Notes under the pieces: model-generated | What the model saw: the letters and a program-made list of their open reading frames with translations, nothing else | The model's database searches: none | What the model was told of the DNA's origin: nothing | Source: Labilibacter sediminis | GTDB lineage: Bacteria > Bacteroidota > Bacteroidia > Bacteroidales > Marinilabiliaceae | Assembly: GCF_005877885.1 (NCBI RefSeq) | Contig: NZ_VCHY01000015.1 | Coordinates: 1-64,000, forward strand | Reading direction: 5' to 3' | DNA: 64,000 nt | Shown: piece by piece, positions 3,914 to 50,760 of the stretch | Layout of the letters: every line of letters begins with the position of its first letter | Numbering within the stretch: position 1 is the stretch's first letter | Position numbers and translations under genes: made by a program

Positions 3914-5620
3914 ATGGCTAATTTTTTTACAGATAACCCCGACTTAAAGTTCCATCTTACTCACCCTATGATGGAAAAGATAGTGGCATTAAAAGAACGT
4001 AATTTTACCGATAAGGATAAATTTGATTACGCTCCTATGGATTTTGAAGATGCCATGGATAGCTACGAAAAAGTCTTAGAGATTGTGGGTGAGATTTGTG
4101 GCGATATCGTAGCGCCTAATGCAGAGAGTGTGGATCAGGAAGGTCCTAAAATTGTTGATAATGAAGTAATATATGCCAAAGGAACACAGGAAAACCTTGA
4201 CGCCTTGGTCAATGCCGGATTAATGGGTATTACTCTTCCGCGCAAGTATGAGGGACTTAACTTTCCTATTGTGCCTTATATTATGGCTGCCGATATCGTT
4301 TCGAGAGCGGATGCCGGTTTTGTAAATATCTGGGGACTGCAGGATTGTGCAGAAACCATCAATGAATTTGCCGATGAGGATCAGAAATCTCGTTTCCTGC
4401 CTCGTATCTCCAATGGAGAAACGGCAGCCATGGATTTAACAGAGCCTGATGCGGGTTCCGATTTACAAGCTGTTCAGTTAAAAGCAACTTTCAACGAGGA
4501 AGATGGGAAGTGGTATTTGAATGGTGTTAAACGTTTTATCACCAATGGTGATGGTCATGTGTCGCTTGTGCTGGCGCGATCGGAAGAAGGAACGCAGGAT
4601 GGTAGAGGTTTATCTATGTTTATTTACGATAGAAACGAAAAGGCAGTGATTGTTCGTCGTATCGAAAATAAAATGGGTATCAAAGGATCGCCTACCTGTG
4701 AACTGGTATTTAAAAATGCACCTGCAGAATTGGTGGGTTCTCGTAAGATGGGACTCATCAAATATGTGATGGCTCTGATGAATGGTGCCCGATTAGGTAT
4801 TGGGGCACAGTCTATTGGTATTTGTGAGGCTGCTTATCGCGAAGGTCTTGAGTACGCTAAAGAACGTGAGCAGTTTGGTAAGCCTATCATTCAGTTTCCG
4901 GCAGTATATGAAATGCTATCTACCATGAAAGCTAAGCTTGATGCTTCGCGCACCTTGTTGTATGAAACATCGCGTATGGTGGATATATATAAAACCTATA
5001 TGCACATTAGCGAAGAGCGTAAGCTTGAGCCTGCAGAACGTAAGGAGATGAAGCGTTACCAAAAGATGGCCGATTTCTTTACACCGCTTCTAAAAGGCCT
5101 GACCAGTGAGTATAGTAACCAGTTGGCCTACGATTCATTACAGATTCATGGTGGATCAGGTTTTATGAAGGATTATCCTATTGAACGAATTTATCGTGAC
5201 GCCCGTATTACTTCTATTTACGAGGGTACTACTCAGTTACAGGTAGTGGCTGCCATCAGAGGGGTTACTACCGGCGGATATGTAGATAGAATCAGAGAAT
5301 ATGAGCTTATGGAGCTTCGTCCTGAATTACATGGGTATCGCCGTACTTTAATCGGCATGACAGAAGAGTATGTACATGCTGTTAAAACGGTAGTAGATGT
5401 GAAGGACAATGAGTATGTTGATTTCCACGCTCGTCGTTTAGTGGAGATGGCTGGTCATATTGTAATGGGCTACCTATTGTTATTAGACACCCAGCGTGAT
5501 GAACAGTTTAAAACCTCAACAGAGATTTATATAAATATGGGTAAGGCGGAAAATACTTCAAGAGCAGAGTTTATTCATAACTTTACTTTAGATGATATTG
5601 GTGCCTATAAGCATGTTTAG
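3914..5620 (+). CDS. Acyl-CoA dehydrogenase with C-terminal extension
   Basis: A 568-residue FAD-dependent acyl-CoA dehydrogenase, partner of the EtfAB encoded just upstream. The FAD/substrate motif LTEPDAGSDLQ is at 175-185. REQFGKPIIQFPAV marks the C-terminal helical domain. E437 in YEGTTQLQ sits where short- and medium-chain dehydrogenases have their catalytic base. Typical members are about 380 residues. This one has a longer N-terminus, an insertion around 360-390 and about 115 residues after the YEGTTQ motif, a long form I associate with Bacteroidota. Chain-length specificity cannot be read from the sequence. A strong terminator follows within 20 bp. Confidence 0.92.
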   Translation: MANFFTDNPDLKFHLTHPMMEKIVALKERNFTDKDKFDYAPMDFEDAMDSYEKVLEIVGEICGDIVAPNAESVDQEGPKIVDNEVIYAKGTQENLDALVNAGLMGITLPRKYEGLNFPIVPYIMAADIVSRADAGFVNIWGLQDCAETINEFADEDQKSRFLPRISNGETAAMDLTEPDAGSDLQAVQLKATFNEEDGKWYLNGVKRFITNGDGHVSLVLARSEEGTQDGRGLSMFIYDRNEKAVIVRRIENKMGIKGSPTCELVFKNAPAELVGSRKMGLIKYVMALMNGARLGIGAQSIGICEAAYREGLEYAKEREQFGKPIIQFPAVYEMLSTMKAKLDASRTLLYETSRMVDIYKTYMHISEERKLEPAERKEMKRYQKMADFFTPLLKGLTSEYSNQLAYDSLQIHGGSGFMKDYPIERIYRDARITSIYEGTTQLQVVAAIRGVTTGGYVDRIREYELMELRPELHGYRRTLIGMTEEYVHAVKTVVDVKDNEYVDFHARRLVEMAGHIVMGYLLLLDTQRDEQFKTSTEIYINMGKAENTSRAEFIHNFTLDDIGAYKHV

Positions 5621-5638
5621 TTAGAATGTTTTAAAGGT

Positions 5639-5674
5639 AAAACGGTCTTCAAATTTTGAGGACCGTTTTTTTTT
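5639..5674 (+). terminator. Intrinsic terminator of etfB-etfA-acd
   Basis: AAAACGGTC pairs with GACCGTTTT across a 13-nt loop and runs into about ten T residues. It lies 19 bp after the acyl-CoA dehydrogenase stop. Confidence 0.9.
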
Positions 5675-5689
5675 CGTATTGTCGATACG

Positions 5690-5785
5690 TTGATTTGTTA
5701 ATTTGACAATTTGACAATTTGTTAATGTGTAGTTTGATATTGACCGAATAAACAAATTAACAAATACACAAATAAACAGTTTTAG
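5690..5785. repeat. Octamer array with inverted arms
   Basis: The left arm reads in steps of eight: TTGATTTG, TTAATTTG, ACAATTTG, ACAATTTG, TTAATGTG. After about 18 bp the right arm is the complement: CAAATTAA, CAAATACA, CAAATAAA, CAG. The arms can pair in several registers. The same organisation recurs throughout the window. An eight-base period cannot preserve a reading frame when copy number changes, so the open frames here are not genes. Confidence 0.85.
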
Positions 5786-5799
5786 AGATTTTATTATGT

Positions 5800-6500
5800 C
5801 GTTGTGTCGTGAAATAGTAGTATGGAAGAAATTTGAATATAAGCAAGCAGTACATCAATTCTCCTCATTTTAAAGGAGGAGTCGCTCGACGTAGGAGAGT
5901 GGAGGTGGTTGTTATTTAAGGGTGCTGATATGTGAATTTGACAATTTGTTGATGTGAGAAAATATATTAGTCGATTAAACAAATTATCAAATAAACGAAT
6001 AAACAGGTTTTGAAGATTAGTGGTGTAGTTGTATCGAAGATTAGTGATGTCGCAAATCCTTACCGTGCTAATTGTCTATTTATCCCCAGCACTAAAGTAC
6101 TGGTCTTGGATGAGCTGTCCCTTCAGGACAGGGATTTATTTTTGGAACGATTCTTTATTAGCAATACGATAATTAGAACCGTTCCTTAGTTTTGTTTTTA
6201 TAGTTGTGTCGTGGTATCGGTATGTCGTTGTGTTGATTTGTCGATTTGTTAATGTGTTAAATCATAATAAACGATTAAACAAATTATCAAATAAACGAAT
6301 AAACAGGTTTTGAAGATTAGTGATGTCGGGTTGTCGTGATGCTAACTGATCACTGATCACTGATTACTGATTACTGATCACTGTTCATGCAAATCCTACC
6401 CCGTAGGGGTATCACATCAATAGCCCGGGGTAAACGCAGTGCCACCCCGGGTATGCAATTCAAATAAAACCGCCGCATAGTGATGCTTGTTTAAGATACG
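5800..6500. repeat. Composite repeat block A, upstream of the macroglobulin gene
   Basis: In order it contains: a CTCCTCATTTTAAAGGAGGAG hairpin followed by GTCGCTCGACG (5861..5908); an octamer inverted array (5931..6012); a 150-bp module starting CGCAAATCCTTACC (6051..6202); a second octamer array (6231..6310); a heptamer run of CTGATCA/CTGATTA units (about 6347..6388); and a GC-rich module with AATCCTACCCC, AGCCCGGGGTAAACGCAGTG and CGCATAG (6390..6484). The same modules in the same order lie at 12826..13500, about 7.0 kb away, on the other side of the 6-kb gene. Confidence 0.9.
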
Positions 6501-6544
6501 ATGTGAGTTTGCGGAGGAAATAGAAGATTGTTTAGTTCGATAGT

Positions 6545-6640
6545 TGTATCGGTGTGTCGATTTGTTAATGTGTTAATTTGACAATGTGCAGATTGATAAT
6601 GATTAAATAAACAAATTATCAAATACACAAATAAACAGAA
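6545..6640. repeat. Octamer array with inverted arms
   Basis: Left-arm octamers of the NNRATKTG type (TCGATTTG, TTAATGTG, TTAATTTG, ACAATGTG) are followed by the complementary right arm CAAATTAT, CAAATACA, CAAATAAA. It lies just before the macroglobulin gene. I see no clear promoter box between here and 6755. Confidence 0.8.
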
Positions 6641-6754
6641 TGTTGGAGGTTTTGTGATGTAATACTGTTGTATTTCTCAAAAAAAGTGAATTTATTTTAT
6701 GGAATAATATCATTTTAGCATCCTTCCTGTAAAAGATAACCTAAACATATTTTC

Positions 6755-9700
6755 ATGTTAAAAAGATTCATCACTTTTCTAGTGCTTTTGGGTAGCCTTG
6801 CACCCGTTATTATAGCCAGTGACTTACCACAGAGTCGCACCAATAGTTACTACAAGTATATTTATAAATTAACGCCTAAGGAAGCAAAGAGTATTTACCG
6901 TAAGGGATTGGCTGACGTGAATGAGAGTTATTTTCATTCCCTGACTGATTCTGTACCTAATGATTCTGTTTTTAATAGCAAATTGCCACAGGGTAATTAT
7001 TTATTGGTATGGGCACAACAAAATCAACTTAAGTTTGAGATGCGATCATATGCAGATATTGATGTGATGATTCATAATAATTATGCAGACCTCTTATTGA
7101 CAATATCAGACAGTGCCGGTATGGTGGTTAAAAATGCTAAGGTAAAGATTGACGGAACTTTGGTTAAATATAACGATGAAGTAGAAGCTTATAGGAGCGC
7201 TAAAAAAAATAAGAGGGGCTGGCTCGAAGTGACTTATAATGATTTTACAAGCTATCATTATCTCGGTAATAATGTAAAAAAAGGAGTTAAGTTCAGAAAG
7301 GTTGCATTTTCGGTGCCTGTAAAATATGTGTATATCCCGCTAAGGTTATTGGTGTTTTTGCCTTACGATGTCATCATGTCGGTATACAGATTGAGGCCGC
7401 AGGGTTTACCTTATTATGTGTACAAGCCTTTTAAGGATGCGTATAATTCAATATTTAGGTATGGATCTTATGGTTGGGTGAATGGCCTGGTTAATACGTG
7501 GGAGAATACCTTTTATAAGGACTATGAAGGGTATATGGTTTTCAGTCAGCCCAAGTACAAGCCCGATGATACGGTTCGGTTTAAAGCTTTTATTCTTAGG
7601 CCCAATGGAAAGCCAATTGCCCATCAGCCATTAGATGCGTTTATCCGGGTGGACAAAAAAAATGTAAAGCTTAAAGAAATTATTCCTGACAATCGAGGGG
7701 CATATGCCTGTGAATTTGTATTGCATGATTCATTGCAGCTTAAGTTGGATAAAAATTACCGCATTTCTTTAAAAAAGGGAGGGTGGAATACTGTTATTTC
7801 AAGGACGTTTAAATATGAAGATTATGAGTTAAATAGTGTTGATTATAAGATGAGGATAGATAAAAATACACAGCTGAAGGGCAAGCCTTTTTTTGTGTAC
7901 CTGAAGGGAGAGGATATGAACGGACTTAATGTTCCTGATGGCAGGGTAAAGCTTACCTTGAAATCAAGAAATAATTTTACAAATTTATATGTCAACAGGG
8001 CCTATATTCCGGATACTATCTTAACAATTGAAAAGCCACTTGATCCGCTTGGAGAAACAATTATAGAGATACCAGATTCTATCTTTCCGGAAATTGATTT
8101 TTCATATGACCTGAAGGCTGTTTTTTTAACGAGTGATAACGAACGAATTCAGAAACAAAAGCTGGTTCATTATTACCACAATAAAAAAGAGTTATCATTG
8201 AATTTACGCAATGATTCAGTTTGGTTTTCTTATAAAGAGCTGGATGTTGATAAACAAGTGAAGGCTGTTGTAGAGGGATATGATAAAAATGGAAATAAGT
8301 TAAGCAGTCAGCATATTGAACTGCCGCATGGACTTTTTGTAGATAAGCAGATTGCTGCTTATAAGGTAAAAACAGCAGGAGTTAGTCGAAATTTCAAATT
8401 AAGTGAGTATACGCCATCCCTCTCACTTTCATCTAACAGAAATCACAATAAGTTGGAACTGGCAGTGTCCAATCCGGGAGGTATTTATTTTAACTTCTTT
8501 GTATATAAAAAAGATAAGGAAATAATGCATGGATATACGCAACACCTCGATACTTTAATTCATATGGGAAGTGGAAAGGCATGTTCTGTATGCCTCAACT
8601 ATGAGTGGGCAGGTAAATCTTATCAACAATCTTATGATATACCGATTTATAAAAAGCAGCTTCATGTTGAATTGGATCAGCCTCAGGTAATTTATCCCGG
8701 ACAAACGGCAGATATTACGGTTAAGGTTACCGATTATAAAAACAGGCCAGTAAAAGGTGTGGATTTAACAGCTTATGGTTTAAGCAAAAAGTTTAAGTAT
8801 TCAGCTCCTATGCTTGATTATTATGGCAAGAGTATGAAAGCACGCACCATGTTTAATAATTATACGATGATGGGGGATATTCATTATGGTAAGTCATATC
8901 AAAAGTCTTTAGATTATACAAATTGGAATAGCATAATGAGTCTGGATACCATTACCTATTATCAGTTTACCAGACCCGATATTGGTGTTCACAAAGAAGA
9001 GATAAACACAAAGGATAATGTGACACAGTTTGCTCCATATGTATTTGTAAACGGAGTGCCACAACAGATTCACTTTATTTTTTTAGATTATAAGTTGTTG
9101 TACTCTTCATTATCCACTACAAAAGACCCTTTTAGTTTTTGGGCGGGCGCCGGATATCATAAACTCAGGTTAAGAACTACAAAGCAGGACATCACCATTG
9201 ATTCAGTATATTTTAGTTACGGTAAAAAGAATTTAATTTCGATAGACCCTACAAAAGACAATAAACAAGTTCTGATTAGTAAAAGAACATCTAAGTTAAC
9301 TTTAGAGGAAAAACGTTTAATCAGGACTCGTTTTGCCCGGTTTATCAATCCCAATACAAGTGGTTTGTATTATCTGCGGCAAGGTAATATTCGTTATTTA
9401 CTTCAAGATCAATCTTCAGTTGGAAATTATTATCGGAGCCACAGAAGTAATGGTGAGTTAATTGCCGGACCGTTTAATACATCTACAGTCAACTATATTG
9501 GAGTCAACAGGTATAGCACTGATTTTAAATTTGAACCATCATATTTATATACTGTTGATGAGCGACTTGTAAAGATGAAAACTTTTGATCGTTTTTGGCC
9601 TTTTTATCATTTAAGCGATAATCATATTCTTCAAAACTATACCGATCAGGTGCTTACTCAAAAAGAAATAGAAAGAAGAAGTAAGCAAGTGACGAGGCAA

Positions 9701-12700
9701 AGGATAAGTCAACATATTCAGTATAACAATCCTTATTCTACACAAAGAGGTAATGGAACTATTGCCTTTGAATTTAAGGGTAATAACAAGAGTTGTACAT
9801 CATTAAGTAATGTTATAATTTTTAAGGATGATGATCCTTTGTTTATGAGGATTTATCCTCCGGGAACCAGGCGAATTTACGACCTGAAGGCAGGTAATTA
9901 TCGCTTGTTCTTCTCTATGGATGATGGATCTTACTTTCAGGAGGAAGCTATTGAGGTAAAAGCAAATAATATTTGTGCCTGTAGGGTTGTGGAACCAGTT
10001 TTCTTACTAAAAGATGATACCTCTGAAAGAATAACCAGTCTGATTCAAAGCAAGTGGTTAAAAAAGGATGGTTATAGCAGTATAGCAACACAACGGTATT
10101 ATGCTGAAAAGGAAATAAGATCAACTTACCAAAGAAGTCAGCTAGATTATACCAACTCAAGAGTGATAGAAGGCAGGGTAGTGGATGAATCGGATGAAAT
10201 GGGACTTCCAGGAGTAAATGTGATGATTAAAGGTACAGATATTGGAACCATATCTGACATAGACGGATATTATTCTATTGAATTACCAGAGGGAGAGTGG
10301 GAGCTTCAATATTTTTTTATCGGGTTTAAGCCGGTATATGTTCCTGTTAGTTATTCCGAAGAAATTAATGTAGCCCTGGCTGCTGATGTTACAGGGCTGG
10401 ATGAGGTTGTTGTCGTGGGCTATGGAACAACCAGAAGTTCATCATTAACAGGTAGTGTAAGTACAGTTACATCTCAAGCTTTGCAAGGCAGAATGGCAGG
10501 TGTTAACGTTGTGCATTCCGGTGCTCCTGACATCAAAATAAGAGGGGTGAGTTCGTTACAGGAGAGTAATAAGCCTTTAATTATTGTAGACGGTGTGCCT
10601 GTGGATATTGATATGAGCAACATAGATAAATCACTGATTACAGAGATAAATATTTTAAAAGATGCTTCAGCAACGGCCATTTATGGATCGCGAGGTGCCA
10701 ATGGGGTTGTTATAATCAGTACTAAGAGTGGAAAAGGAATTCCCGGGGCTAAACAATTAAATGATATTGAAGTTCCATATCAGTCTATATCAACCCACAC
10801 TTTAAGAAGTAACTTTTCGGATATGGCATACTGGCAACCTAATTTAGTTACTGATAAAAATGGAGAGGCAAGCTTTACAACAACTTTCCCGGATGATATT
10901 ACGGCCTGGAAAACTTTTGCATTGGCAGTAGGTAAAAATAAAAGCACAGGACAGGTACAGGCTGAAGTGAAGGCATTTAAGCCGGTATCAGCACAATTAT
11001 ATACCCCTCGTTTTTTAACACAGGGGGATTCAATCACCATCATCGGAAAGTCAATTAATTATTTGGAAGACTCCATTGAAATAACTGGTCATTATCAGGT
11101 GGATTCAATTAAAGAAGATAACTGGTATAGTACAATCGGTCGAATAAAAGTTGATTCTTTATCGCTTCAGGCGGAGGGCACAGATACCTTATCTGTTACT
11201 TATTCTTTGGAACGAGACAATGGATATTTTGACGGAGAGAACCGCAAAGTACCTGTTGTTCCTGCTGGTGTATTGGAAACGCAGGGGCAGTTTTTTACGA
11301 TGAGTAGTGATACCTTGATTTCCTTTGTCATGCCAAAGAATGCAACCAATGGTTTATTGTATTTAGAATCTAATCCACTGAATATATTGCTGGATGAAAC
11401 CAGACACCTGCGAAAGTATAGTCATTTGTGCAACGAGCAGGCCTCATCCAAATTATTGGGTCTACTTAACGAAGAAAAGATATGTGCATATCTGGATAAG
11501 GAATTTAAATACAAAAAAGATGTGAATACTTTAATTCAGCGCCTGCAAAAAAGCACCAATGATAAAGGCGTTTGGGGATGGTGGTCCGGCTTAAATACCG
11601 AATGGTGGATCACAGCGCATGTTGTTGAAGCATTAGAAAGCGCCAGGCAGGCAGGCTATAAAGTCTCTTACGACAAAGAAAAGGTGAAGTATGTGCTATC
11701 CAATCAAATGTTTTTGGTAAATGATAAGATGAAAATGGATATTGTTCGTACCCTACAGGTTATGAAAGCAGAGGTGGATTATCCTTCCCTGATTAAAGAA
11801 ATATCCTCATATTCTCTAAAAAGAATAGATTCTCTTAAGCTGACATTGATAAAGCAAAAGGCTAATATGCCGGTAGATTTATCATTATTTATTCAAAGTA
11901 AGCAGGAAACCTTGTACGGAAATTATTATTGGGGTAAACCCTCATGGTCTCTTTTTTATGGCGAGATTCAGGAAACCTTATTGATGTATGAAATTTTAAA
12001 GAATGATGGCTCTTATAAGGAGTGGTTACCCAAAATACGTCAGTATTTTTATGAAAGAAGAAGCAATAACAAATGGAGAAATACCTATGAGTCAACTTTA
12101 ATAGTAAATCACCTGTTACCTGACTTACTATCTAAAAATAAAGGCGAGGAAAAATGCAAACTTCAGTTGGATTGTAACGGGGAGATGATTGATGTAGATA
12201 AGTTCCCATATTCAATGGAACTAAAACCTTCTGATCATGTAAGTCTTCATAAAAAAGGAGATCAGGTTGTTTTTGCCGGATGGCACAATAAATTTTTTAA
12301 TGATAAACCCAGGGCGAAAGAAGAGTACTTTAAATTACGTACCTACTTTAAGAGGCAGGGAGAAGAGATAAATAGTCTTACCGCAGGAGAAAAAGTTTCG
12401 CTGTTGGTGGATATCGATGTAAAGAAAAAATCGGATTATGTATTGCTTGAAATTCCCATACCTTCGGTTTGTTCCTATCATCAAAAATCTATGCGAAAAT
12501 ACAACGAAGCACACAGAGAGTATCATAAAGAAAAAGTTTGTATTTATTATAAATCCTTGAAAACAGGCAAACATCGTGTAGAAATAGAATTAGTACCACG
12601 ATATACAGGCCAGGTGATTTTAAATCCTGCGCGAATGGAGCATATGTATTTCCCGGTGTTTTATGGTAATAATGAAATGAAAGAAGTGGAGGTGGGGATG

Positions 12701-12703
12701 TAA
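6755..12703 (+). CDS. Alpha-2-macroglobulin family protein with inserted TonB-plug domain
   Basis: A 1982-residue exported protein. Residues 1-21 are a signal peptide. MG-type beta domains follow; the segment YMVFSQPKYKPDDTVRFKAF (about 268-287) is the MG2 signature, and QVIYPGQTADITVKV (about 645) begins another. A CarboxypepD_reg domain begins at VIEGRVVDESD (1137), with a SusC-like plug (about 1220-1328: EVVVVGYGTT, IRGVSSLQESNKPLIIVDGVP, SATAIYGSRGANGVVII), but no beta-barrel follows. Instead the A2M core resumes at DMAYWQPNLVTDKNGEASF (1356) and carries C1559-N-E-Q, matching the CxEQ thioester motif. The C-terminal ~120 residues resemble the receptor-binding domain. By family it may trap proteases covalently at the envelope; the role of the plug is unknown. 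Direct repeat blocks flank the gene. Confidence 0.9.
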   Translation: MLKRFITFLVLLGSLAPVIIASDLPQSRTNSYYKYIYKLTPKEAKSIYRKGLADVNESYFHSLTDSVPNDSVFNSKLPQGNYLLVWAQQNQLKFEMRSYADIDVMIHNNYADLLLTISDSAGMVVKNAKVKIDGTLVKYNDEVEAYRSAKKNKRGWLEVTYNDFTSYHYLGNNVKKGVKFRKVAFSVPVKYVYIPLRLLVFLPYDVIMSVYRLRPQGLPYYVYKPFKDAYNSIFRYGSYGWVNGLVNTWENTFYKDYEGYMVFSQPKYKPDDTVRFKAFILRPNGKPIAHQPLDAFIRVDKKNVKLKEIIPDNRGAYACEFVLHDSLQLKLDKNYRISLKKGGWNTVISRTFKYEDYELNSVDYKMRIDKNTQLKGKPFFVYLKGEDMNGLNVPDGRVKLTLKSRNNFTNLYVNRAYIPDTILTIEKPLDPLGETIIEIPDSIFPEIDFSYDLKAVFLTSDNERIQKQKLVHYYHNKKELSLNLRNDSVWFSYKELDVDKQVKAVVEGYDKNGNKLSSQHIELPHGLFVDKQIAAYKVKTAGVSRNFKLSEYTPSLSLSSNRNHNKLELAVSNPGGIYFNFFVYKKDKEIMHGYTQHLDTLIHMGSGKACSVCLNYEWAGKSYQQSYDIPIYKKQLHVELDQPQVIYPGQTADITVKVTDYKNRPVKGVDLTAYGLSKKFKYSAPMLDYYGKSMKARTMFNNYTMMGDIHYGKSYQKSLDYTNWNSIMSLDTITYYQFTRPDIGVHKEEINTKDNVTQFAPYVFVNGVPQQIHFIFLDYKLLYSSLSTTKDPFSFWAGAGYHKLRLRTTKQDITIDSVYFSYGKKNLISIDPTKDNKQVLISKRTSKLTLEEKRLIRTRFARFINPNTSGLYYLRQGNIRYLLQDQSSVGNYYRSHRSNGELIAGPFNTSTVNYIGVNRYSTDFKFEPSYLYTVDERLVKMKTFDRFWPFYHLSDNHILQNYTDQVLTQKEIERRSKQVTRQRISQHIQYNNPYSTQRGNGTIAFEFKGNNKSCTSLSNVIIFKDDDPLFMRIYPPGTRRIYDLKAGNYRLFFSMDDGSYFQEEAIEVKANNICACRVVEPVFLLKDDTSERITSLIQSKWLKKDGYSSIATQRYYAEKEIRSTYQRSQLDYTNSRVIEGRVVDESDEMGLPGVNVMIKGTDIGTISDIDGYYSIELPEGEWELQYFFIGFKPVYVPVSYSEEINVALAADVTGLDEVVVVGYGTTRSSSLTGSVSTVTSQALQGRMAGVNVVHSGAPDIKIRGVSSLQESNKPLIIVDGVPVDIDMSNIDKSLITEINILKDASATAIYGSRGANGVVIISTKSGKGIPGAKQLNDIEVPYQSISTHTLRSNFSDMAYWQPNLVTDKNGEASFTTTFPDDITAWKTFALAVGKNKSTGQVQAEVKAFKPVSAQLYTPRFLTQGDSITIIGKSINYLEDSIEITGHYQVDSIKEDNWYSTIGRIKVDSLSLQAEGTDTLSVTYSLERDNGYFDGENRKVPVVPAGVLETQGQFFTMSSDTLISFVMPKNATNGLLYLESNPLNILLDETRHLRKYSHLCNEQASSKLLGLLNEEKICAYLDKEFKYKKDVNTLIQRLQKSTNDKGVWGWWSGLNTEWWITAHVVEALESARQAGYKVSYDKEKVKYVLSNQMFLVNDKMKMDIVRTLQVMKAEVDYPSLIKEISSYSLKRIDSLKLTLIKQKANMPVDLSLFIQSKQETLYGNYYWGKPSWSLFYGEIQETLLMYEILKNDGSYKEWLPKIRQYFYERRSNNKWRNTYESTLIVNHLLPDLLSKNKGEEKCKLQLDCNGEMIDVDKFPYSMELKPSDHVSLHKKGDQVVFAGWHNKFFNDKPRAKEEYFKLRTYFKRQGEEINSLTAGEKVSLLVDIDVKKKSDYVLLEIPIPSVCSYHQKSMRKYNEAHREYHKEKVCIYYKSLKTGKHRVEIELVPRYTGQVILNPARMEHMYFPVFYGNNEMKEVEVGM

Positions 12704-12825
12704 ATCTGTTGATGTGTTGATTTGCCGATTTGTTAATGTGTTAATTTGATAATATGCTAATGTATTGATTTGTCGATTGATAATGATCGAATAAACAAAT
12801 TGACAAATGCGCAAATAAACAGTTT
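12704..12825. repeat. Octamer array directly after the macroglobulin gene
   Basis: The left arm has about nine octamers (TTGATGTG, TTGATTTG, CCGATTTG, TTAATGTG, TTAATTTG, ATAATATG, CTAATGTA, TTGATTTG, TCGATTGA). The right arm has three (CAAATTGA, CAAATGCG, CAAATAAA). This is one of the longest left arms in the window and starts within about 10 bp of the stop codon. Confidence 0.85.
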
Positions 12826-13500
12826 TCAGAAGATTAGTGGTGTAGTTGGCCGTGAAACATTAGCATGGAAGATAATTTTACATATGCAAGCTGTACATCA
12901 ACTCTCCTCATTTTCAAGGAGGAGTCGCTCGACGCAGGAGAGTGGAGGAGGTTGATATTGAAGGGTGCTGATTTGTTAATTTGACAATTTGTTGATGTGT
13001 AGAATGTAATGGACGATAAACAAATAAACATTTTTTAGAAGATTTGTTGTGGCATGATGTCGCAAATCTTTACTGAGCTAATTGTCTATTTATCCCCAGC
13101 ACTAAAGTACTGGTCTTGGTTGAGCTGTCCTTTCAGGACAGGGATTTATTATTGAAACATAGGGTCTTTATCTGCAAGAAAGTAATTAGAACTGTTCCTT
13201 AGTTTTGCTTTTATAGTTGTGTCGTGGTATCGTGATGTCGATTTGTTGATTTGTCGATTTGTTAATGTGTTAAATCATAATAAACGATTAAACAAATTAT
13301 CAAATAAACGAATAAACAGGTTTTGAAGATTAGTGATGTCGGGTTGTCGTGATGCTAACTGTCACTGATTACTGATTACTGATTACTGATCACTGTTCAT
13401 GCAAATCCTACCCCAGCGGGGTATCACATCAATAGCCCGGGGTAAACGCAGTGCCACCCTGGGTGCACCATGTAAATGAAACCGACGCATAGGGATGTTC
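12826..13500. repeat. Composite repeat block B, downstream of the macroglobulin gene
   Basis: It has the same module order as block A (5800..6500) and the same orientation: CTCCTCATTTT hairpin with GTCGCTCGACG (12904..12950), octamer array (12963..13030), 150-bp module from CGCAAATCTTTAC (13061..13216), octamer array (13229..13318), heptamer run (about 13361..13399) and the AATCCTACCCC / AGCCCGGGGTAAACGCAGTG module (13402..13495). Spacing to block A varies from 7010 to 7043 bp across the modules because of small indels. Confidence 0.9.
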
Positions 13501-13559
13501 AATCAGAGTATAATGTATCATTGCGGCGGAATTGTTAAAGGATGGTTTCGTTATTTCGT

Positions 13560-13835
13560 TGTGTCGAGAAACAGTAGTATGGAAGAATATTGTCATATAA
13601 CCAAGCTGCACATCAACTCTCCTCATTTTAAAGGAGGAGTCGCTCGACGCAGGAGAGTGGAGGTGGTTGATATTGAAGGGTATTGATTTGTTAATGTATT
13701 GATTTGTTAATGTGTCGATTTGTTGATTTGACAATTTGTTGATGTGTTAAATCAAAATAAACAAATAAACAGTTTTCAGAAGATTCGTGATTTCGTTGCT
13801 TATCGTTAACTGATCCCTGATTACTGTTCACTGCA
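13560..13835. repeat. Third partial copy of the composite block
   Basis: It contains another CTCCTCATTTTAAAGGAGGAG hairpin with GTCGCTCGACGCAGG (13619..13666), an octamer array with inverted right arm (13680..13768), and a short heptamer run of CTGATCC/CTGATTA type (about 13807..13832). It ends about 45 bp before the glycosyltransferase start. Confidence 0.8.
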
Positions 13836-13881
13836 AACTGTTCTATCAAAATAATTATCTTTATTGCCAAACAGCTTTTAT

Positions 13882-15099
13882 ATGAACGAAAAAAAGAAAA
13901 TCATAGCATTTATTGATTGGTATGTACCAGGGTATAAAGCAGGAGGGGGACAGCGTGCTTTTGCCAATATGGTGAGTTACCTGCGAGATACTTTTGATTT
14001 TTATGTGATTACCCGCAATACAGATTTCTTAGAAACAACACCATATGAAGGAGTAGAAAGTGAAAAGTGGTTGCAGCGAAACGATGGAGAGTATGTGTAT
14101 TATTGCCCGGAGGTAAAGGTTGGCAATACCTTATACAAGCAACTGATTGAAGAAGTAAAGCCAGATTATGCTTATATCAATGGAGTGTACTCCTGGAAGT
14201 TTTCGATTTTACCATTGGTAATACTGCGAAAAGTTGGCTTTAAGGGGAAGGCAGTGCTTGGGACCTATGGAATGCTGGCGCAAACAGCCATTAAGATTAA
14301 AAAAGGGAAGAAACAATTATTCTTAAAGCTGGCAAGATTAATAGGGCTATATAAAAATGTAATTTTTCATGCTACCAGTGAAAAGGAAATTGAAGATATT
14401 AAAGCAGCCTTTGGATCTAAAGCAAAGGTGCAGATGGCACCACACTTGCCGGTTAAGGAATTGCCAGATTTGCGACTTATTGATAAACAATCCGGAGATC
14501 TGAAATTGATTAGTATAGCACGTATATCGCCCGAGAAGAATACTTTGTTTGCTTTGCAATGCCTAAAAAAACTAGGAGAAGTTGAGGGGCAAATTGCTTT
14601 TGATCTTTATGGACCTATTTACGATAAACTTTATTGGGAGGAATGTCAGCAAGAGATTGCTCAACTACCAACGAATATAAAGGTGAACTACAAGGGTGTT
14701 GTAGATGGTAACCAAGTGCTTGATTTATTTACTGAGTACCATGCTTTATTTATGCCAAGCAGAGGTGAGAATTTTGGTTATGTGATATTGGAAAGTTTGA
14801 TGGCTTCACGACCGGTACTTATTAGTGATCAGACTCCATGGAGAGACTTGGAAAAGAAGATGTGCGGATGGGATATTTCATTAATCGAAAGTAATAGTAG
14901 AGGAGTAGAAGGTGTAGACAACGAGGAACAGCATGAAAAGCGATCAGTCAGCAATACATGGAGTGGTGCTCTAAAACTTTTGTTGGCAATGGAGCAGGAG
15001 CAATTTGATGGTTTATGCCAGGGGGCTAAAAAGAGGGCTGAGAATTTTATTAATGACCCGGAGTTGAAGGAGGGGAATGTAGAGCTGTTTAGGGATTAG
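13882..15099 (+). CDS. Glycosyltransferase family 4 (GT-B)
   Basis: This 405-residue retaining glycosyltransferase probably uses a nucleotide sugar in surface-glycan synthesis. The N-terminal Rossmann half has GYKAGGGQRAFANMV. The C-terminal half has ISIARISPEKN-like sequence (LISIARISPEKNTLFAL) and ENFGYVILE, the EX7E motif that binds the sugar nucleotide. I use the ATG at 13882; a TTG 18 bp upstream would add only six residues. It is the only plus-strand gene of the polysaccharide region, convergent with the rest and separated from them by a transposase. Donor and acceptor are unknown. Confidence 0.85.
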   Translation: MNEKKKIIAFIDWYVPGYKAGGGQRAFANMVSYLRDTFDFYVITRNTDFLETTPYEGVESEKWLQRNDGEYVYYCPEVKVGNTLYKQLIEEVKPDYAYINGVYSWKFSILPLVILRKVGFKGKAVLGTYGMLAQTAIKIKKGKKQLFLKLARLIGLYKNVIFHATSEKEIEDIKAAFGSKAKVQMAPHLPVKELPDLRLIDKQSGDLKLISIARISPEKNTLFALQCLKKLGEVEGQIAFDLYGPIYDKLYWEECQQEIAQLPTNIKVNYKGVVDGNQVLDLFTEYHALFMPSRGENFGYVILESLMASRPVLISDQTPWRDLEKKMCGWDISLIESNSRGVEGVDNEEQHEKRSVSNTWSGALKLLLAMEQEQFDGLCQGAKKRAENFINDPELKEGNVELFRD

Positions 15100-15254: not shown

Positions 15255-15968
15255 TTATTCATCAAACCACTTTCCTATATCTTCATTGTGGTTTACAGAT
15301 TGATGGCATTGTTTGAAATTTTCAGTGTCATCAAACCAAGCGATTAACTCATTTCTTTTTAATCTGGTTGGATCATTAGAGAGGCTGGTTAGGTAGCTGC
15401 TCCAAGGGTATTCTATAGAACTTGTACAGAACCCATGATGTATAGGATTATTATGAATGTATATTATAGCCTGCTTAAGGTATTCCTTAGAATCAATTAA
15501 TTTACGTTTGAATGGGCGTTCGAATAAGGCACCGTGACGGTTGTAGCGTTTGTTGTAATATTTTGCGTAGGCATTAAACAGGTGGGAGAAATGTCTGGTA
15601 GGGTTTGGTTTTTTACCATTCAACGCTGACAGGTCAGCGATGTTTTTTCTTTCATCCTTCAACGCTGACAGGTCTGCGACGCTGTCAGGTTTTGTTTCCC
15701 ATTTGTTTATTTCAAATGCGACAGGGTCAATAGACTTGTCGGTATTGGTTAATTTGTAAATGATATCATCCTTTATTTGTACCAATAAGTGAAAATGGTT
15801 TTTCATCAGTACGTAGGCATATGTGTCAGCTATTGGATCAATATATTTGGCATGTAATGAAAGAAAATGATTGTAGTCTTCATCAGTTTCAAATAAATTA
15901 CAGCTGTTAATGCCTCTGTTGTATATGTGATAATAATTTGCTGATATTATAGGTTCGGTTTGTTCCAT
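15255..15968 (-). CDS. REP-associated tyrosine transposase (RAYT, Y1_Tnp family)
   Basis: A 237-residue single-strand DNA transposase of the IS200/HUH type. YYHIYNRGIN (12-21) and the HUH pair H58-F-H60 in MKNHFHLLVQ are visible, and the usual EYLKQAIIYIHNNP helix lies near residue 165. Family members act on REP palindromes without left and right transposon ends. Residues 94-117 (PDSVADLSALK, then NIADLSALN) are translated REP sequence, an in-frame insertion of the element's own repeats. REPs also lie 14-270 bp upstream of the gene. Whether the enzyme is still active is unclear. Confidence 0.9.
   Translation of the reverse strand: MEQTEPIISANYYHIYNRGINSCNLFETDEDYNHFLSLHAKYIDPIADTYAYVLMKNHFHLLVQIKDDIIYKLTNTDKSIDPVAFEINKWETKPDSVADLSALKDERKNIADLSALNGKKPNPTRHFSHLFNAYAKYYNKRYNRHGALFERPFKRKLIDSKEYLKQAIIYIHNNPIHHGFCTSSIEYPWSSYLTSLSNDPTRLKRNELIAWFDDTENFKQCHQSVNHNEDIGKWFDE
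15620..15692. repeat. REP sequences inside the RAYT coding region
   Basis: A half unit (CAACGCTGACAGGTCAGCG, 15620..15639) and a full palindromic unit (AACGCTGACAGGTCTGCGACG plus CTGTCAGG, 15661..15689) lie in frame within the transposase gene. The stem is CTGACAG/CTGTCAG around a GTCTGCGACG-type core. Confidence 0.85.
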
Positions 15969-37061: not shown

Positions 37062-37454
37062 TTAGATGACCAGATTGTTAATAATACGTTTGTATTGCAA
37101 GCTTGGTTTGCCAAAATTAATAAGAATTCCAAGCTTTTTATTAGTTGCTTTAAGGTAATTGATTAATTGAGATTCATGCTCTTTTGTCAAGTCACCCAAA
37201 GCTTTTAATTCTATTATAATATCATTGTAGCAGATGAAGTCAGCCTTATAATACTTATCGAGTTTATCACCTTTGTAGTAAATATGTATCAAGCTTTCTT
37301 TCTGGAAAGGTATATCTTGGATACTAAACTCCTTAGCCAAAGCCTCTTGGTATACTGGTTCAAGAAATCCATTCTTCAATTCATTATGAACCTCCATTGC
37401 TGCTCCTATGATTTTATACGCTTCATCCTTATATAATACTCCTTCTACCATCAA
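37062..37454 (-). CDS. GxxExxY protein (PD-(D/E)XK nuclease-like)
   Basis: A 130-residue protein with HNELKNGFLEPVYQEAL, whose G-F-L-E-P-V-Y segment is the family-naming motif, and the nuclease-like pair D...IIELKAL (residues ~93-105 region, ADFICYNDIIIELKALGDL). Such genes are widespread in Bacteroidota and often sit as a single insert in unrelated operons. Function is not established. Here it separates wzt from wzm. The strand matches the operon, so transcription can continue through it. Confidence 0.88.
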   Translation of the reverse strand: MMVEGVLYKDEAYKIIGAAMEVHNELKNGFLEPVYQEALAKEFSIQDIPFQKESLIHIYYKGDKLDKYYKADFICYNDIIIELKALGDLTKEHESQLINYLKATNKKLGILINFGKPSLQYKRIINNLVI

Positions 37455-38445: not shown

Positions 38446-39009
38446 TTATTTATCGAATTTAAAGTCCGGTATTTCAGTTTTACAAACAGGCTTTAATATT
38501 TTATCTTTTTCAGAGAGTATAATATCCTTACCAGGTAACTGCCAATCAATATTTAAGTCTTTATCATTCCAGGCGATGCCACTGTCATAATCTGGAGCGT
38601 ATTTGTTATCTACCATGTAGCTGAAGATGGCAAACTCACTTAAAACGACAAAACCATGGGCAAAACCACGAGGCACATAAAGTTGGTGTTTATTCTCTCC
38701 AGATAACTCAAAACATTGATGTTGCCCGTATGTAGGAGAGTCCTTGCGCAGGTCAACCACAACATCCAGCACCTTACCTTCTATGCAGCGTACCAATTTT
38801 GCCTGGGAGTAGGGTGGTTTTTGATAGTGTAAACCGCGTAAGACACCATAGGATGATTTAGATTCATTCACCTGGATGAAATTTACCTCTCCGATATGTT
38901 CTTTGAATTTATCGTGGTTATAGGCTTCTAAGAAATAACCCCGTCGGTCGCCAAAGATATTGGGCTCAATAAGGATTAAATCTTCTATTTCGGTTTTTAT
39001 GAATTTCAT
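38446..39009 (-). CDS. rfbC: dTDP-4-dehydrorhamnose 3,5-epimerase family protein
   Basis: A 187-residue cupin of the RmlC family from the ATG at 39009. An upstream ATG at 39045 would add 12 residues with no homology. The active-site LRGLHYQ (57-63, H61 as base), the VLDVVVDLRKDSPTYG strand and YVPRGFAHGFVVLSE are intact. It converts dTDP-4-keto-6-deoxy-glucose to the rhamno form, but no rfbA, rfbB or rfbD lie in the window, so dTDP-sugar supply comes from elsewhere or the substrate is different. Confidence 0.92.
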   Translation of the reverse strand: MKFIKTEIEDLILIEPNIFGDRRGYFLEAYNHDKFKEHIGEVNFIQVNESKSSYGVLRGLHYQKPPYSQAKLVRCIEGKVLDVVVDLRKDSPTYGQHQCFELSGENKHQLYVPRGFAHGFVVLSEFAIFSYMVDNKYAPDYDSGIAWNDKDLNIDWQLPGKDIILSEKDKILKPVCKTEIPDFKFDK

Positions 39010-39115
39010 TTGGTTAGTTGCTGCGCAACTCTTTTTTCTGTCCACGAATTACACGGATTTCACTAATTATTACTGCTTCGCAGTTTTTAAATTCGTGTTA
39101 TTGGTGTAATTAGTG
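39010..39115. repeat. Short repeats upstream of rfbC
   Basis: The region holds the GTTGCTGCGCAAC palindrome, TCCACGAATTACACGGATTTC, which is cut one base short of its full repeat here, and another ACTGCTTCGCAGT palindrome. These belong to the same short family seen around the GxxExxY gene. Confidence 0.55.
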
Positions 39116-39219: not shown

Positions 39220-39767
39220 CTAATTGTTTATTTGTTGAAATATATACTTTCAAATCGACAAATCAGCAGATCGACAAATCAACATATTTCAGAGGCTTGT
39301 TTATTCGTTTATTTGACGATTTGTTTATCTGTTCATTTGTTTATTCGATTACTTCATTTTACAATTCAGCAAATCCACAAATTAACACATCGATACATTC
39401 ACAAATCAACAAATTTCAGAAGCTTGTTTATTCGTTTATTTGACGATTTGTTTAACTGTTCATTTGTTTATTCGATTACTTCATTTTACAAATCAGCAAA
39501 TCAACAAATTAACACATCGACACATTCACAAATCAACATATTTCAGAAGCTTGTTCATCTGTTTATTTGTTGAAATATATACTTTCAAATCGACAAATCC
39601 GCAGATCGACAAATCAACATATTTCAGAGGCTTGTTTATTCGTTTATTTGACGATTTGTTTATCTGTTCATTTGTTTATTCGATTACTTCATTTTACAAT
39701 TCAGCAAATTCACAAATTAACACATCGACACATTCACAAATTACCAAATCAACAGCAGCTTCGCTGC
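39220..39767. repeat. Expanded octamer repeats between rfbC and cysC
   Basis: About 540 bp consist almost wholly of octamer runs: right arms such as CAGCAAAT, CCACAAAT, TAACACAT, CGATACAT, TCACAAAT, CAACAAAT alternate with left arms such as GTTTATTC, GTTTATTT, GACGATTT. A segment from TTTGTTGAAATATATAC at 39231 recurs at 39566, a 335-bp step. Inside are tandem units of about 130 bp bounded by TTTCAGAGGC or TTTCAGAAGC. Open frames here give the same low-complexity peptide in several frames and are not genes. Confidence 0.88.
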
Positions 39768-40409: not shown

Positions 40410-41047
40410 TTTATTGTTTATTTGTTGAATCGTTTATTTGTCTATTTGTTTAAGTGTATTTTATATAGTTCAAATCAACACATTGACACATTAGCAAATC
40501 AACATATTTCAGAGGCTTGTTTATTCGTTTATTTGACGATTTGTTTAACTGTTCATTTGTTGATTCGATCAATTTATTTTACAAATCAACACATTGACAA
40601 ATTATCAAATCGACATACCGACATCACTTGTTTGTTTTTTCAAAGATTCGTTGCGTCGTTGTATCGAAGATTGTTGTTGCTTAATTGTTTATTTGTCTAT
40701 TTGTTGTTTAAGTGTATTTTATATAGTTCAAATCAACACATTGACACATTAGCAAATTAACAAATTTCAGAGGCTTGTTTATTCGTTTATTTGACGATTT
40801 GTTTAACTGTTCATTTGTTGATTCGATCAATTTATTTTACAAATCAACACATTGACAAATTATCAAATCGACATACCGACATCACTTGTTTGTTTTTTCA
40901 AAGATTCGTTGCGTCGTTGTATCGAAGATTGTTGTTGCTTAATCGTTTATTTGTCTATTTGTTGTTTAAGTGTATTTTGCATAGTTCAAATTAACACATT
41001 AACACATTAGCAAATCAACAAATTAGCACATTAACACATTAACAAAC
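40410..41047. repeat. 258-bp tandem repeat, about 2.3 copies
   Basis: TAAGTGTATTTTATATAG occurs at 40451 and 40709, and the variant TAAGTGTATTTTGCATAG at 40967, an exact 258-bp step both times. Each unit has octamer right arms (CAACACAT, TGACACAT, TAGCAAAT), TTTCAGAGGCTTG, left arms (GTTTATTC, GTTTATTT, GACGATTT, GTTTAACT), a second right arm and a GTTGCGTCGTTGTATCGAAG tail. The two full units are almost identical, implying recent duplication. Confidence 0.92.
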
Positions 41048-42463: not shown

Positions 42464-42701
42464 TTATTTGTTGTTTCGAAGATTGGTTTTGTTGTTTGTT
42501 TATTTGCCTATTTGTTTATTTGCCTATTTGTTTATTCGTTTATTTGTAGAGTTTGCTTCTCAAATCGACAAATTAACAATTCAATATTTCAAAATTATCG
42601 AAGATTGGTTTTTTGTTGGTACTTGATGTCGATTTGTTTATCTGTTTATTTGTCGATTTGTGTAATGTATCCTTTAAGAACAACTTTTATTGATGAATAA
42701 T
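42464..42701. repeat. Octamer-rich gap
   Basis: Left-arm octamers (GTTTATTT, GCCTATTT, GTTTATTC) run from about 42495 to 42550, followed by a short right arm (CAAATCGA, CAAATTAA, CAATTCAA) at about 42561..42585, and another left-arm run at 42627..42660. No coding signal. Confidence 0.75.
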
Positions 42702-43064
42702 TTATTTTTCCAATAGCCTTTTGTGGAATGCATTGATTTTATTTGATAACTCTGTTATTTCTTTTCTAAGTTCTATAAGAACATTGTTGTTAATAAAACC
42801 CAGGTCGTTGGATAAAATAAGCTGGTTAATAACCTCCAGAAGGCTGGAGAAAGCCATTTCTATAAATCTAGCTTTGTCTTTATTTGAATGCCTTCCGTTT
42901 CCTTCTGCTATATTTGAAGAAATAGAAACAGCAGCTCTTCGTAGTTGAGATGTCAGACCAAATTTTTCTTCTTCCGGGAAATGTTGTGTTATTGAGTATA
43001 TGTTTTTTACCAGTTGGCGTGACAGTTGCCAGATCTCAAGTTTTTCAAAATTGTATTGATACAT
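42702..43064 (-). CDS. Four-helix-bundle protein (23S rRNA intervening-sequence family)
   Basis: A 120-residue all-helical protein. [40 protein letters not shown] and [14 protein letters not shown] are the family pattern. Members are found both inside 23S rRNA insertions and, as here, as single genes scattered through Bacteroidota chromosomes, often in polysaccharide loci. Function is unknown. It lies 236 bp after upxY on the same strand. Confidence 0.9.
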
Positions 43065-43300
43065 TAGTCAGGTTGGGTTAATGATTTTATTAAGAAATTT
43101 CAGAAAAAGAGAGATGTAAACAAGCTCATCAATTTAACAAATCATCAAATAAACAAATCGTCATTTTTAAAGGAAAAACCTACCTTTTTTTCACGGCTTC
43201 GCCTCCCTCAGTCCCATATGATATAGGCTAAGTGAGTGCTCATAATATGTCAATTCTGACCTAATCAGATAGTTAAGTCAGTTATGTGTTTTTTGGTTAT

Positions 43301-43925: not shown

Positions 43926-44775
43926 TGAAGATTAGTTGTGTTGTTTTATTGTGGTTTCGTGATGTTGCGGATGTGTTAATTTGTGGAATCGTTGATTTGA
44001 GAAAATATATTAAACGATTAAACAAATTGACAAATAAACAAATAAACAATTTTTGAAGGTTAGTGATGTTGTTATTTTGTGATGTTGCGGATTTGTTGAT
44101 TTGTCGAATCGTTGATTTGAGAAAATATATTAATCGATTAAGCAAATTGACAGATCAACAAATAAACAGTTTTTGAAGATTAGTGATGTCGTTATTTTGT
44201 GATGTTGCGGATTTGTTGATTTGTCGAATCGTTGATTTGAGAAAATATATTAATCGATTAAACAAATTGACAGATCAACAAATAAACAGTTTTTGAAGGT
44301 TAGTGATGTTGTTATTTTGTGATGTTGCGGATTTGTTGATTTGTCGAATCGTTGATTTGAGAAAATATATTAAACGATTAAACAAATTGACAAATAAACA
44401 AATAAACAGTTTTTGAAGATTAGTGATGTCGTTATTTTGTGATGTTGCGGATTTGTTGATTTGTCGAATCGTTGATTTGAGAAAATATATTAATCGATTA
44501 AACAAATTGACAGATCAACAAATAAACAGTTTTTGAAGGTTAGTGATGTTGTTATTTTGTGATGTTGCGGATTTGTTGATTTGTCGAATCGTTGATTTGA
44601 GAAAATATATTAAACGATTAAACAAATTGACAAATAAACAAATAAACAGTTTTTGAAGATTTGTGATGTTGTTATTTTGTGATGTTGCGGATTTGTTGAT
44701 TTGTCGATGTGTTAATTTTATGAATTGCAATAAACGATTAAGCAAATTGACAAATAAACAAATAAACAGTTTTTA
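43926..44775. repeat. 120-bp tandem repeat array with exact period
   Basis: About seven units in perfect register: the word TTGTCGAATCGTTGATTTGA (or TTGTGGAATCG in the first) begins at 43981, 44101, 44221, 44341, 44461 and 44581, with a diverged unit at 44701. Two unit types differ in the right arm (TAAACGATTAAACAAATTG with CAAATAAACA, versus TAATCGATTAAACAAATTG with CAGATCAACA) and in the tail (GAAGGTTAGTGATGTTG versus GAAGATTAGTGATGTCG). From 44221 to 44700 they alternate, giving a 240-bp higher-order unit. Each unit holds octamer arms. Confidence 0.95.
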
Positions 44776-44790
44776 GAGTTTTCGTTGTGT

Positions 44791-44941
44791 CGCAAATCCT
44801 TACCGGGCTAATTATCTATTTATCCCGGCACTAAAGAGCAGGTCTTGGTTGAGCTGTCCCTTCAGGACAGGGGTTTATTGTCGGAACGGCTCATTATCAG
44901 CAATACGATAATTAGAACCGTTCCTTAGTTTTGTTTTTATT
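44791..44941. repeat. 150-bp dispersed module, third copy
   Basis: It starts CGCAAATCCTTACCGGGC and contains GAGCTGTCCCTTCAGGACAG (internal palindrome CTGTCC..GGACAG), ATACGATAATTAGAACCG and TTCCTTAGTTTTG. It corresponds to 6051..6202 and 13061..13216. Here it stands directly after the 120-bp array rather than inside the longer composite block. Confidence 0.85.
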
Positions 44942-47205: not shown

Positions 47206-47410
47206 GTTTTGTTGTTGAATCGTTTATTTTTTAAACTATCACATCAACACATTTACAAATTAACAAATCGACAGATTAACAAATTAGCACATCCACAAAT
47301 TAACACATCGACATCACCAGAAAGTTGTGTTGTTTATCAGAGATTCGTTGTGTCGAAGATCAAAGCTTCTTTCATGGTAACATCATTCTCGCAAACTAAT
47401 AACCTAACGA
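47206..47410. repeat. Octamer arms and shared leader word
   Basis: A right-arm run (CATCAACA, CATTTACA, AATTAACA, AATCGACA, GATTAACA, AATTAGCA, CATCCACA, AATTAACA, CATCGACA) covers 47231..47312 in clean steps of eight. The word CAAAGCTTCTTTCATGGTAAC with CATCATTCTCGCAAA, cut one base short here, follows at 47361..47396. This is the region past the 3' end of the minus-strand SDR gene. Confidence 0.7.
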
Positions 47411-50511: not shown

Positions 50512-50543
50512 AAAGCGGCTTTTTAACGAGAGTCGCTTTTTTT
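50512..50543 (+). terminator. Intrinsic terminator
   Basis: AAAGCGGCT pairs with AGTCGCTTT across a ~10-nt loop and continues into seven T residues, 46 bp after the stop of the CarboxypepD_reg gene. Confidence 0.75.
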
Positions 50544-50549
50544 GTTCTG

Positions 50550-50760
50550 TTGTTGAATTGTTTATTTGACGATTTGTTTATTTGTATTTTACGAATTACA
50601 TAGCAAATTAACAAATCAACACATTCACAAATTAACACATCTACAAATTAACATTGCCAAATAAGTAGTGTCGTGGTTTCTAAGTAAAATACTTCTTTCA
50701 TTGAAGCTCTTATTCTTACAAATTCACAAATAATTAAATCAACATATAAACATGCCAACA
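50550..50760. repeat. Octamer array upstream of the methyltransferase gene
   Basis: A left arm (GTTTATTT, GACGATTT, GTTTATTT) at 50557..50580 and a right arm (CAAATTAA, CAAATCAA, CACATTCA, CAAATTAA, CACATCTA, CAAATTAA) at 50604..50651, again in exact steps of eight. The leader word TACTTCTTTCATTGAAGC with TCTTATTCTTACAAATTC follows at 50690..50724. Confidence 0.85.

Follow-up and report, generated by a model that had tools for sequence, protein, structure and literature searches.

Short-period repeats are known between the genes of cyanobacteria, where tandem arrays of this kind are called short tandemly repeated repetitive (STRR) sequences. Heptamers of the TAACTGA type occur in Beggiatoaceae, Cyanobacteria, and Bacteroidetes and have been regarded as possible translational signals (MacGregor 2015; available text of PMC4679880), and the main text of that paper makes no mention of S23, intervening, helix bundle, or GxxExxY. 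Another described system is the intervening sequence (IVS) of rRNA, which, according to the available text of PMC4990558, carries an S23/IVP gene within a stem cut by RNase III, the S23 protein being a ring-shaped homopentamer of four-helix bundles. Four-helix-bundle genes are merely listed in the available text of PMC8700078, and among titles and beginnings of abstracts, mostly without subscription papers, none joins S23 or GxxExxY with short-period arrays. The DNA compared here with these systems is a 64,000-nucleotide stretch of Labilibacter sediminis (assembly GCF_005877885.1, contig NZ_VCHY01000015.1, positions 1 to 64,000), referred to as the window, whose intergenic regions contain facing arrays of degenerate octamers. 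With a probability of roughly 0.4, these arrays represent the gene-less form of widespread IVS-like stem-loop cassettes located outside rRNA, in operon messages.

The link between the octamers and the S23 family is provided by a single element of the window. Its S23 gene (Pfam E 1.6e-38, NCBIfam TIGR02436 E 2.5e-36, PDB 2gsc E 1.4e-21) is situated between a nusG-like gene (43301-43807) and an open reading frame (ORF) at 41048-42463. When 42620-43170 is folded as RNA (z -2.57), the entire S23 ORF lies in the loop, and the stem pairs 43136-43164 with 42626-42654, both octamer arms:

42702..43064, minus strand: S23/IVP four-helix-bundle gene (PF05635, TIGR02436), in the only S23-bearing octamer element of the window
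43136..43164, minus strand: 5' arm of the S23 element in the RNA fold, octamers of the RATTTG type on the minus strand
42626..42654, minus strand: 3' arm of the S23 element, CAAAT type, pairing with 43136-43164

The genome contains nine S23 loci (10 places), many of them flanked by facing short-period arrays with a unit differing from locus to locus, and seven of the nine score above 11.5 for arms.

Facing arms round S23 genes are found in other genomes as well. PF05635 matches 148 places in 33 of 41 genomes; 118 loci, covering 119 of these places, were examined, weak or partial matches being among the 29 left out. The arm score compares the 180 nt upstream with the reverse complement of the 180 nt downstream, and swaps are downstream flanks exchanged between loci. 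In the 116 loci with both flanks the mean score is 15.99 for own arms vs 8.66 for swapped ones, with 82 loci above the 95th and 52 above the 99th percentile of swaps, and the result persists when each gene neighbourhood is represented by one locus (16.20 vs 8.50; 77/104 above the 95th percentile). ORFs of the same loci, away from S23, gave a mean of only 8.31, one of 58 exceeding 11.5 and none 15. The similarity is mostly inverted (median flank score 14.5, vs 9.5 for direct), the inverted score being the higher one in 86 of the 116 loci. Autocorrelation of both flanks peaks at 7, 8, and their multiples; upstream flanks are periodic in 64/116 and downstream flanks in 69/116 cases, compared with 4/227 stretches 500-800 nt away and 4/234 shuffled flanks. 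The two arms share the period in 41 of the 46 loci periodic on both sides (7/7 in 26, 8/8 in 12, and 9/9 in three).

A second sample, comprising one genome per species, was drawn from at least 579 relatives among the matches listed, of which 80 were kept and 77 had both flanks. The outcome was much the same: own arms 16.35 vs swapped 8.80, 50/77 above the 95th and 24/77 above the 99th percentile, inverted above direct score in 65/77, periodic flanks in 39/77 upstream and 39/77 downstream vs 4/150 distant controls, and agreement of period in 22/25. The sample is mostly of Bacteroidota; loci of Chlorobiota (L184), SAR324 (L191), Nitrospirae (L241), and Clostridia (L248) score 16.5-27.5, and S23 loci of Treponema (L207) and Oscillospiraceae (L233) give no arm signal. 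Twelve of 28 plasmid records were read (11 cyanobacterial and one of Riemerella), and their S23 loci exceed the 95th percentile of swaps (12.2) in eight cases, heptamer arms being present in several cyanobacterial plasmids (e.g., L166, L170, L171). By arm score L164, L167, and L175 have no arms, and L173 carries direct arrays instead of inverted ones. Phage records yielded no S23 match. Three S23 genes of cyanobacterial plasmids lie within CRISPR operons (L165, L170, L173; one lies between cas10 and cmr3, the other two between cas6 and cas4). Long direct repeats are present in the flanks of the S23 genes L014, L107, L113, L117, and L138 (direct scores 49.5-74.5), and the upstream arm of L115 carries GGGTTTAGGGTTTAGG, which we take to be the unit of plant-type telomere repeats.

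The octamer arrays themselves had been claimed in a preliminary description of the window, and the autocorrelation check proposed there bears them out: at lag 8 the 11,426 intergenic bases match at a rate of 0.375 vs 0.285 (sd 0.005) in first-order Markov sequence (z 17.8), with raised rates at lags 16, 24, and 32 as well, while no lag-8 signal is seen in the coding DNA of the window (0.268). RATKTG repeated three times at an 8-bp step matches the window 50 times, always outside the ORF mask, i.e., in intergenic DNA, whereas 200 Markov sequences averaged 0.005 matches and none had more than 1; across all 372 contigs of the genome (6.36 Mb) there are 68 matches, including these 50, and none to the pattern read backwards. 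The triple pattern is present in 14 of the 41 genomes searched (own included), among which genome-specific variants occur, such as GATGTGCT in G002, and the backward control gives 0 in most genomes, 38 in G009, and 2 in G037. The octamer chains lie at or near the places first described, those at 39-41, 47, and 50 kb on the minus strand. The window is a local hot spot for such arrays, with 30 intergenic periodic arrays vs five in a 400-kb control drawn from two genomes, and one periodic stretch in the remaining 79.6 kb of the contig. An inverted match with a score of at least 14 lies within 700 nt of 21 of the 30 arrays, although, since the octamer is common to neighbouring copies, this match is not necessarily the arm that belongs to the array. 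Of the 14 places folded as RNA, five (5690, 6231, 12704, 44083, and 42495) have z of -2.5 or lower, and the other nine range from -1.95 to 0.16, the worst being 12963 (0.16) and 40930 (0.02). The features other than the S23 element are as follows, strand being given where assigned:

5690..5785: gene-less octamer hairpin, fold z -2.57, in the 13-copy alignment
5931..6012: gene-less octamer hairpin, fold z -1.44, in the 13-copy alignment
6231..6310: gene-less octamer hairpin, fold z -3.08, in the 13-copy alignment
6545..6640: gene-less octamer hairpin, fold z -1.13, in the 13-copy alignment
12704..12825: gene-less octamer hairpin, fold z -3.11, inside the duplicated intergenic block
12963..13032: octamer array, right arm short, poor hairpin, fold z 0.16
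13229..13318: gene-less octamer hairpin, near copy of 6231-6310, fold z -1.64, in the 13-copy alignment and the duplicated block
13680..13775: octamer array, right arm short, fold z -0.76
37062..37454, minus strand: GxxExxY / PD-(D/E)XK_3 gene (PF13366 E 2.8e-39; TIGR04256 E 1.7e-43) with weak arms (score 13.5)
39220..39767: tandem octamer hairpins flanked by 38446-39045 and 39768-40358, with a 127-bp period at 39274-39569; fold of 39655-39760 z -1.05
40410..41047: tandem octamer hairpins with a 258-bp period; fold of 40930-41047 z 0.02
42495..42580: octamer hairpin without a gene, immediately downstream of the S23 element; z -3.84 for the fold of the minus strand
43955..44774: one 120-bp octamer hairpin in 6.8 repeats; fold of 44083-44170 z -4.46
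47220..47314: octamer array whose best inverted match lies at a distance of about 290 nt, fold z -1.10
50535..50657: octamer array, inverted match at a distance of 54 nt; z -1.95 for the fold of 50550-50651

These places are not independent of one another. The intergenic regions 5621-6755 and 12704-13864 share 812 aligned bases (83%), and the alignment of 13 plus-strand copies, in which right arm and tail are conserved, shows them to be one homologous family, its left arm being of variable unit number, just as variation in octamer number between copies had been noted before. The gene-less copies of the window have multiplied locally, partly via tandem and segmental duplication. Of the earlier idea of a hairpin-forming mini-element that had spread and might be bound by an octamer-recognising protein, the first part agrees with the alignment of the 13 copies and the second found no support. 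Nor is the octamer a design without a class: it is one of many facing 7-9-bp units round S23/IVP genes of Bacteroidota, Cyanobacteria, and a few other groups, which makes the element part of a larger class with a recognisable cargo gene, not noticed in the earlier description.

Other repeats lie among the hairpins. A REP-like G+C-rich repeat (CCCCGTAGGGG ... CCCGGG) occurs at 6388-6480 and 13400-13492 in two copies 87% alike, and a similar sequence precedes pyrF in the relative G002 (L285). A 150-bp repeat is present three times (6050-6200, 13060-13213, and 44790-44939; 87-90% to the first), interleaved with octamer hairpins, and so is a 45-bp repeat (5868-5912, 12911-12954, and 13626-13669; 93-98% to the first). 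Heptamer arrays ACTGATC/ACTGATT at 6345-6387 and 13358-13395 resemble the TAACTGA type of the literature and have no inverted match scoring above 8. The two duplicated repeat-rich intergenic blocks are separated by a 1982-aa ORF (6755-12703), and for the ORFs 41048-42463 and 15255-15968 no Pfam match was obtained at E 0.001.

Arms also face each other round GxxExxY nuclease genes, sampled at 29 loci from 112 places (one best locus for most genomes, plus the three of the own genome; three further fetched loci were not used in this sample). In the 28 loci with both flanks own arms score 16.25 vs 9.06 for swapped, 18 of them above the 95th percentile, and flanks are periodic by threshold in 3/28 on each side and never on both. 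A given site may hold either cargo or none, as found when filled and empty sites were sorted by eye. At the mutA/mutB site (13 of 21 loci read), where S23 cassettes are common to several genera, an S23 gene is present in seven genomes, GxxExxY or its remains in three (full length in G015, one piece in G007, two pieces in G013), a gene-less hairpin in two (fold z -3.6 in G004 and -1.0 in G011), and nothing in one (G014). At the ruvA site (13 of 23 read) S23 is present in four genomes, a hairpin without a gene in G005 (z -3.6), and nothing in G001, seven being unclassified. At the pyrF site (13 of 23 read) S23 is found in four genomes, G007 has right-arm-like heptads without a gene, and the other eight loci show no S23 gene within the 260 nt inspected.

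In a complete cassette the S23/IVP gene lies between a left arm built from degenerate direct repeats of 7, 8, or 9 bp and a right arm with that unit inverted. The cassettes are located between genes, mostly within operons, and GxxExxY is a second type of cargo, whose arms are rarely periodic. The arms may pair in the operon transcript and hold the cargo in the loop, by analogy with the 23S rRNA IVS, in which case a double-strand RNase such as RNase III would cut the stem. It is proposed that the insertion would thereby be removed from the message and so be tolerated, and that periodic arms would allow pairing in many registers and free loss or gain of units. In computed RNA duplexes own arms are stronger than swapped ones (-53.0 vs -37.3 kcal/mol), and 75 of 193 loci have energies under the 5th percentile of swaps, but strong RNA duplexes are formed by swapped arms as well.

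Several observations weigh against this reading. A sizeable part of the S23 loci (34/116 and 27/77 in the two samples) stays within the 95th percentile of swaps, and direct flank similarity exceeds that percentile of swapped direct flanks in 29/116 and 17/77 loci. Scores above 11.5 are also seen in seven of the 26 non-S23 ORFs of the window, because octamer hairpins surround most of them. Octamer arrays elsewhere in the genome (C284, C111, C342, C1) lack inverted matches scoring above 11.5 at distances up to 600 nt, and the array pair on C351 has an inverted score of only 12. Selection on an exact RNA stem was sought in the types of mismatch, the duplex energy of the two strands, and shuffled unit order, and none was positive: arm mismatches comprise 249 of the G.U and 288 of the A.C type, with no G.U excess, the sense strand has the better energy in 98 loci vs 94 for the antisense strand, and unit order is matched between the arms in just 7/105 cases at p <=0.05. 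With neither a G.U excess nor a sense-strand advantage, RNA is not singled out. The strand pointing inward has more G than C in 97 of 109 paired-arm elements (fewer in nine, equal in three), a polarity not required of a plain stem. Gene orientation is of little help either. S23 genes typed against both neighbours (179/198 loci) are sense to both in 161 cases and antisense in two, with 8 + 8 mixed (77 sense vs 2 antisense for one locus per neighbourhood), and GxxExxY genes are sense in 22 and antisense in two of 26 typed; however, ordinary gene triples with same-strand outer genes from the 400-kb control are sense in 159 and antisense in 18 cases (37 and 5 for a middle gene of at most 600 bp), so the S23 bias is mostly the usual behaviour of operon genes. 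Among the 12 plasmid S23 loci eight are sense to both neighbours, one is without a downstream gene, and three are antisense between same-strand neighbours (L164, L166, L171). The sense orientation of S23 was accordingly dropped as strong evidence, which lowered confidence in the cassette reading only slightly. A sense orientation of gene-less hairpins was likewise dropped because an inverted array reads alike on both strands. An array of octamers some 200 bp long (L372:1533-1736; G000 C284) is one-sided, inverted matches up to 600 nt from it scoring no higher than 9.5.

The main rival explanation, possible though on balance doubtful, places everything at the DNA level: arrays would grow by replication slippage, facing arms would be homogenised by template switching, and the cargo would be a passenger, with no RNA function. 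Template switching between inverted repeats is known as quasi-palindrome correction. The lack of a strand-specific signal and of a matched unit order, the one-sided arrays, and the direct similarity in part of the loci all agree with it, as does the tendency of both arms to change together, which also speaks for the cassette reading. At orthologous S23 sites (mutA/mutB, pyrF, ruvA, hisF, and an ABC-transporter gene) the units differ between species, and the two arms of one species tend to share theirs, e.g., AAAGTAT in L009 and CAAGTAT in L049. In 26 loci of five such sets, with the near-duplicates L050 and L082 excluded, own arms score above cross-species ones, the observed sum being reached in 0 of 20,000 permutations (p 5e-5); the own arm is the best of its row in 12/26 and above the row median in 23/26 cases, pyrF being the weakest set (2/4). 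Slippage and template switching leave unexplained why arms are found round S23 and GxxExxY genes but not round control ORFs of the same loci, and also the G-rich inward polarity. Moreover, template switching across a 350-nt loop is expected to be rarer than across a short one.

It is unlikely that the arrays are instead protein-binding sites, in which each subunit of the S23 ring binds one repeat unit and the nucleic acid is wrapped for self-regulation or packaging, as RNA wraps round the ring of the trp RNA-binding attenuation protein (TRAP). Some unit columns are indeed fixed and others variable (37 of 105 arrays with at least six units differ from uniform noise, p <0.05), but part of this effect resembles a 14-bp super-period. 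The window protein has a weak similarity to Avd, the accessory protein of diversity-generating retroelements (DGRs) (E 5.9e-6, 26.6 bits, cut-off 80), and to bAvd (24.5 bits, cut-off 40), and Avd binds nucleic acid. Orthologous S23 genes at mutA/mutB, however, accompany different units, and GxxExxY cassettes likewise have facing arms.

Still less can be said for ordinary repeats, i.e., transposon ends, miniature inverted-repeat transposable elements (MITEs), terminators, or attenuators with a periodicity due to chance. The homologous multi-copy hairpins with their conserved tail fit such an origin, yet no Rfam family, rRNA included, reaches the gathering score in the window, the best weak match within 5600-14000 has E 0.059, and the period and the cargo link far exceed the controls. 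That arrays are written at broken ends by a telomerase-like, templated repeat-adding reverse transcriptase and then joined head to head is scarcely credible, as the two classified reverse transcriptases, of six RVT_1 places in the genome, are of the group II intron type and the mutA/mutB S23 cassettes are shared across genera, so that many arrays need not be new, even though the inward strands are G-rich, the arms agree in unit but not in variant order, and a bacterial reverse transcriptase writing tandem-repeat DNA has been reported (DRT10; available text of PMC12632851).

The G-rich inward strand is explained neither by an RNA stem nor by a DNA-level history, and for this reason a repeat-adding enzyme is kept in the boldest reading, a highly improbable one, according to which S23/IVP, GxxExxY, and many orphan heptamer and octamer repeats from Bacteroidota and Cyanobacteria would belong to one mobile cassette class, with both arrays rewritten from one template by that enzyme and S23 as its RNA-binding part; such rewriting would keep the arms matching while the unit drifts. 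The stem-loop cassette reading would, if true, make an orphan gene family and orphan repeats parts of one element, joining the S23/IVP proteins (common in Bacteroidota and Cyanobacteria and annotated without a function), the GxxExxY genes, and the cyanobacterial short-period repeats, and would render the long-standing question of IVS and S23 function testable.

Among known systems, DRT10 also makes short tandem repeats in bacteria (available text of PMC12632851) and is an analogy only, no such enzyme having been identified among the two reverse transcriptases classified here. DGRs share the weak Avd similarity of the S23 protein, which is below both curated cut-offs, and no DGR reverse transcriptase is among those two. 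Like repetitive extragenic palindromic (REP) sequences and MITEs, the window's hairpins are small, gene-less, multi-copy, and intergenic; unlike them, they have unit-periodic arms of variable length and a unit differing between loci, and complete members carry a cargo gene. STRR and TAACTGA heptamers are likewise short intergenic direct repeats, scattered in Cyanobacteria and Bacteroidetes, with indels mostly in 7-nt steps between two strains (available text of PMC4679880). They are tandem 7-bp units; the unit of the window has 8 bp, and heptamers also form arms round S23 genes of several cyanobacterial plasmids. In that paper the heptamers appear as direct repeats, many of them ahead of a start codon, and a single inverted pair is reported (available text of PMC4679880). 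The 23S rRNA IVS differs in its location, since the cassettes lie between protein genes and not in an rRNA helix, their arms have a 7-9-bp period, and their cargo may be absent or another gene. An S23/IVP ORF lies inside the element at 42626-43164 and not inside the gene-less copies, and a stem round the ORF is found in the window fold and in 82/116 and 50/77 loci, i.e., not in all. In other respects the cassettes agree with the IVS, with an S23/IVP ORF in the loop of a stem formed by complementary flanks, a sporadic distribution, and tolerance of the insertion in a transcribed locus (available text of PMC4990558).
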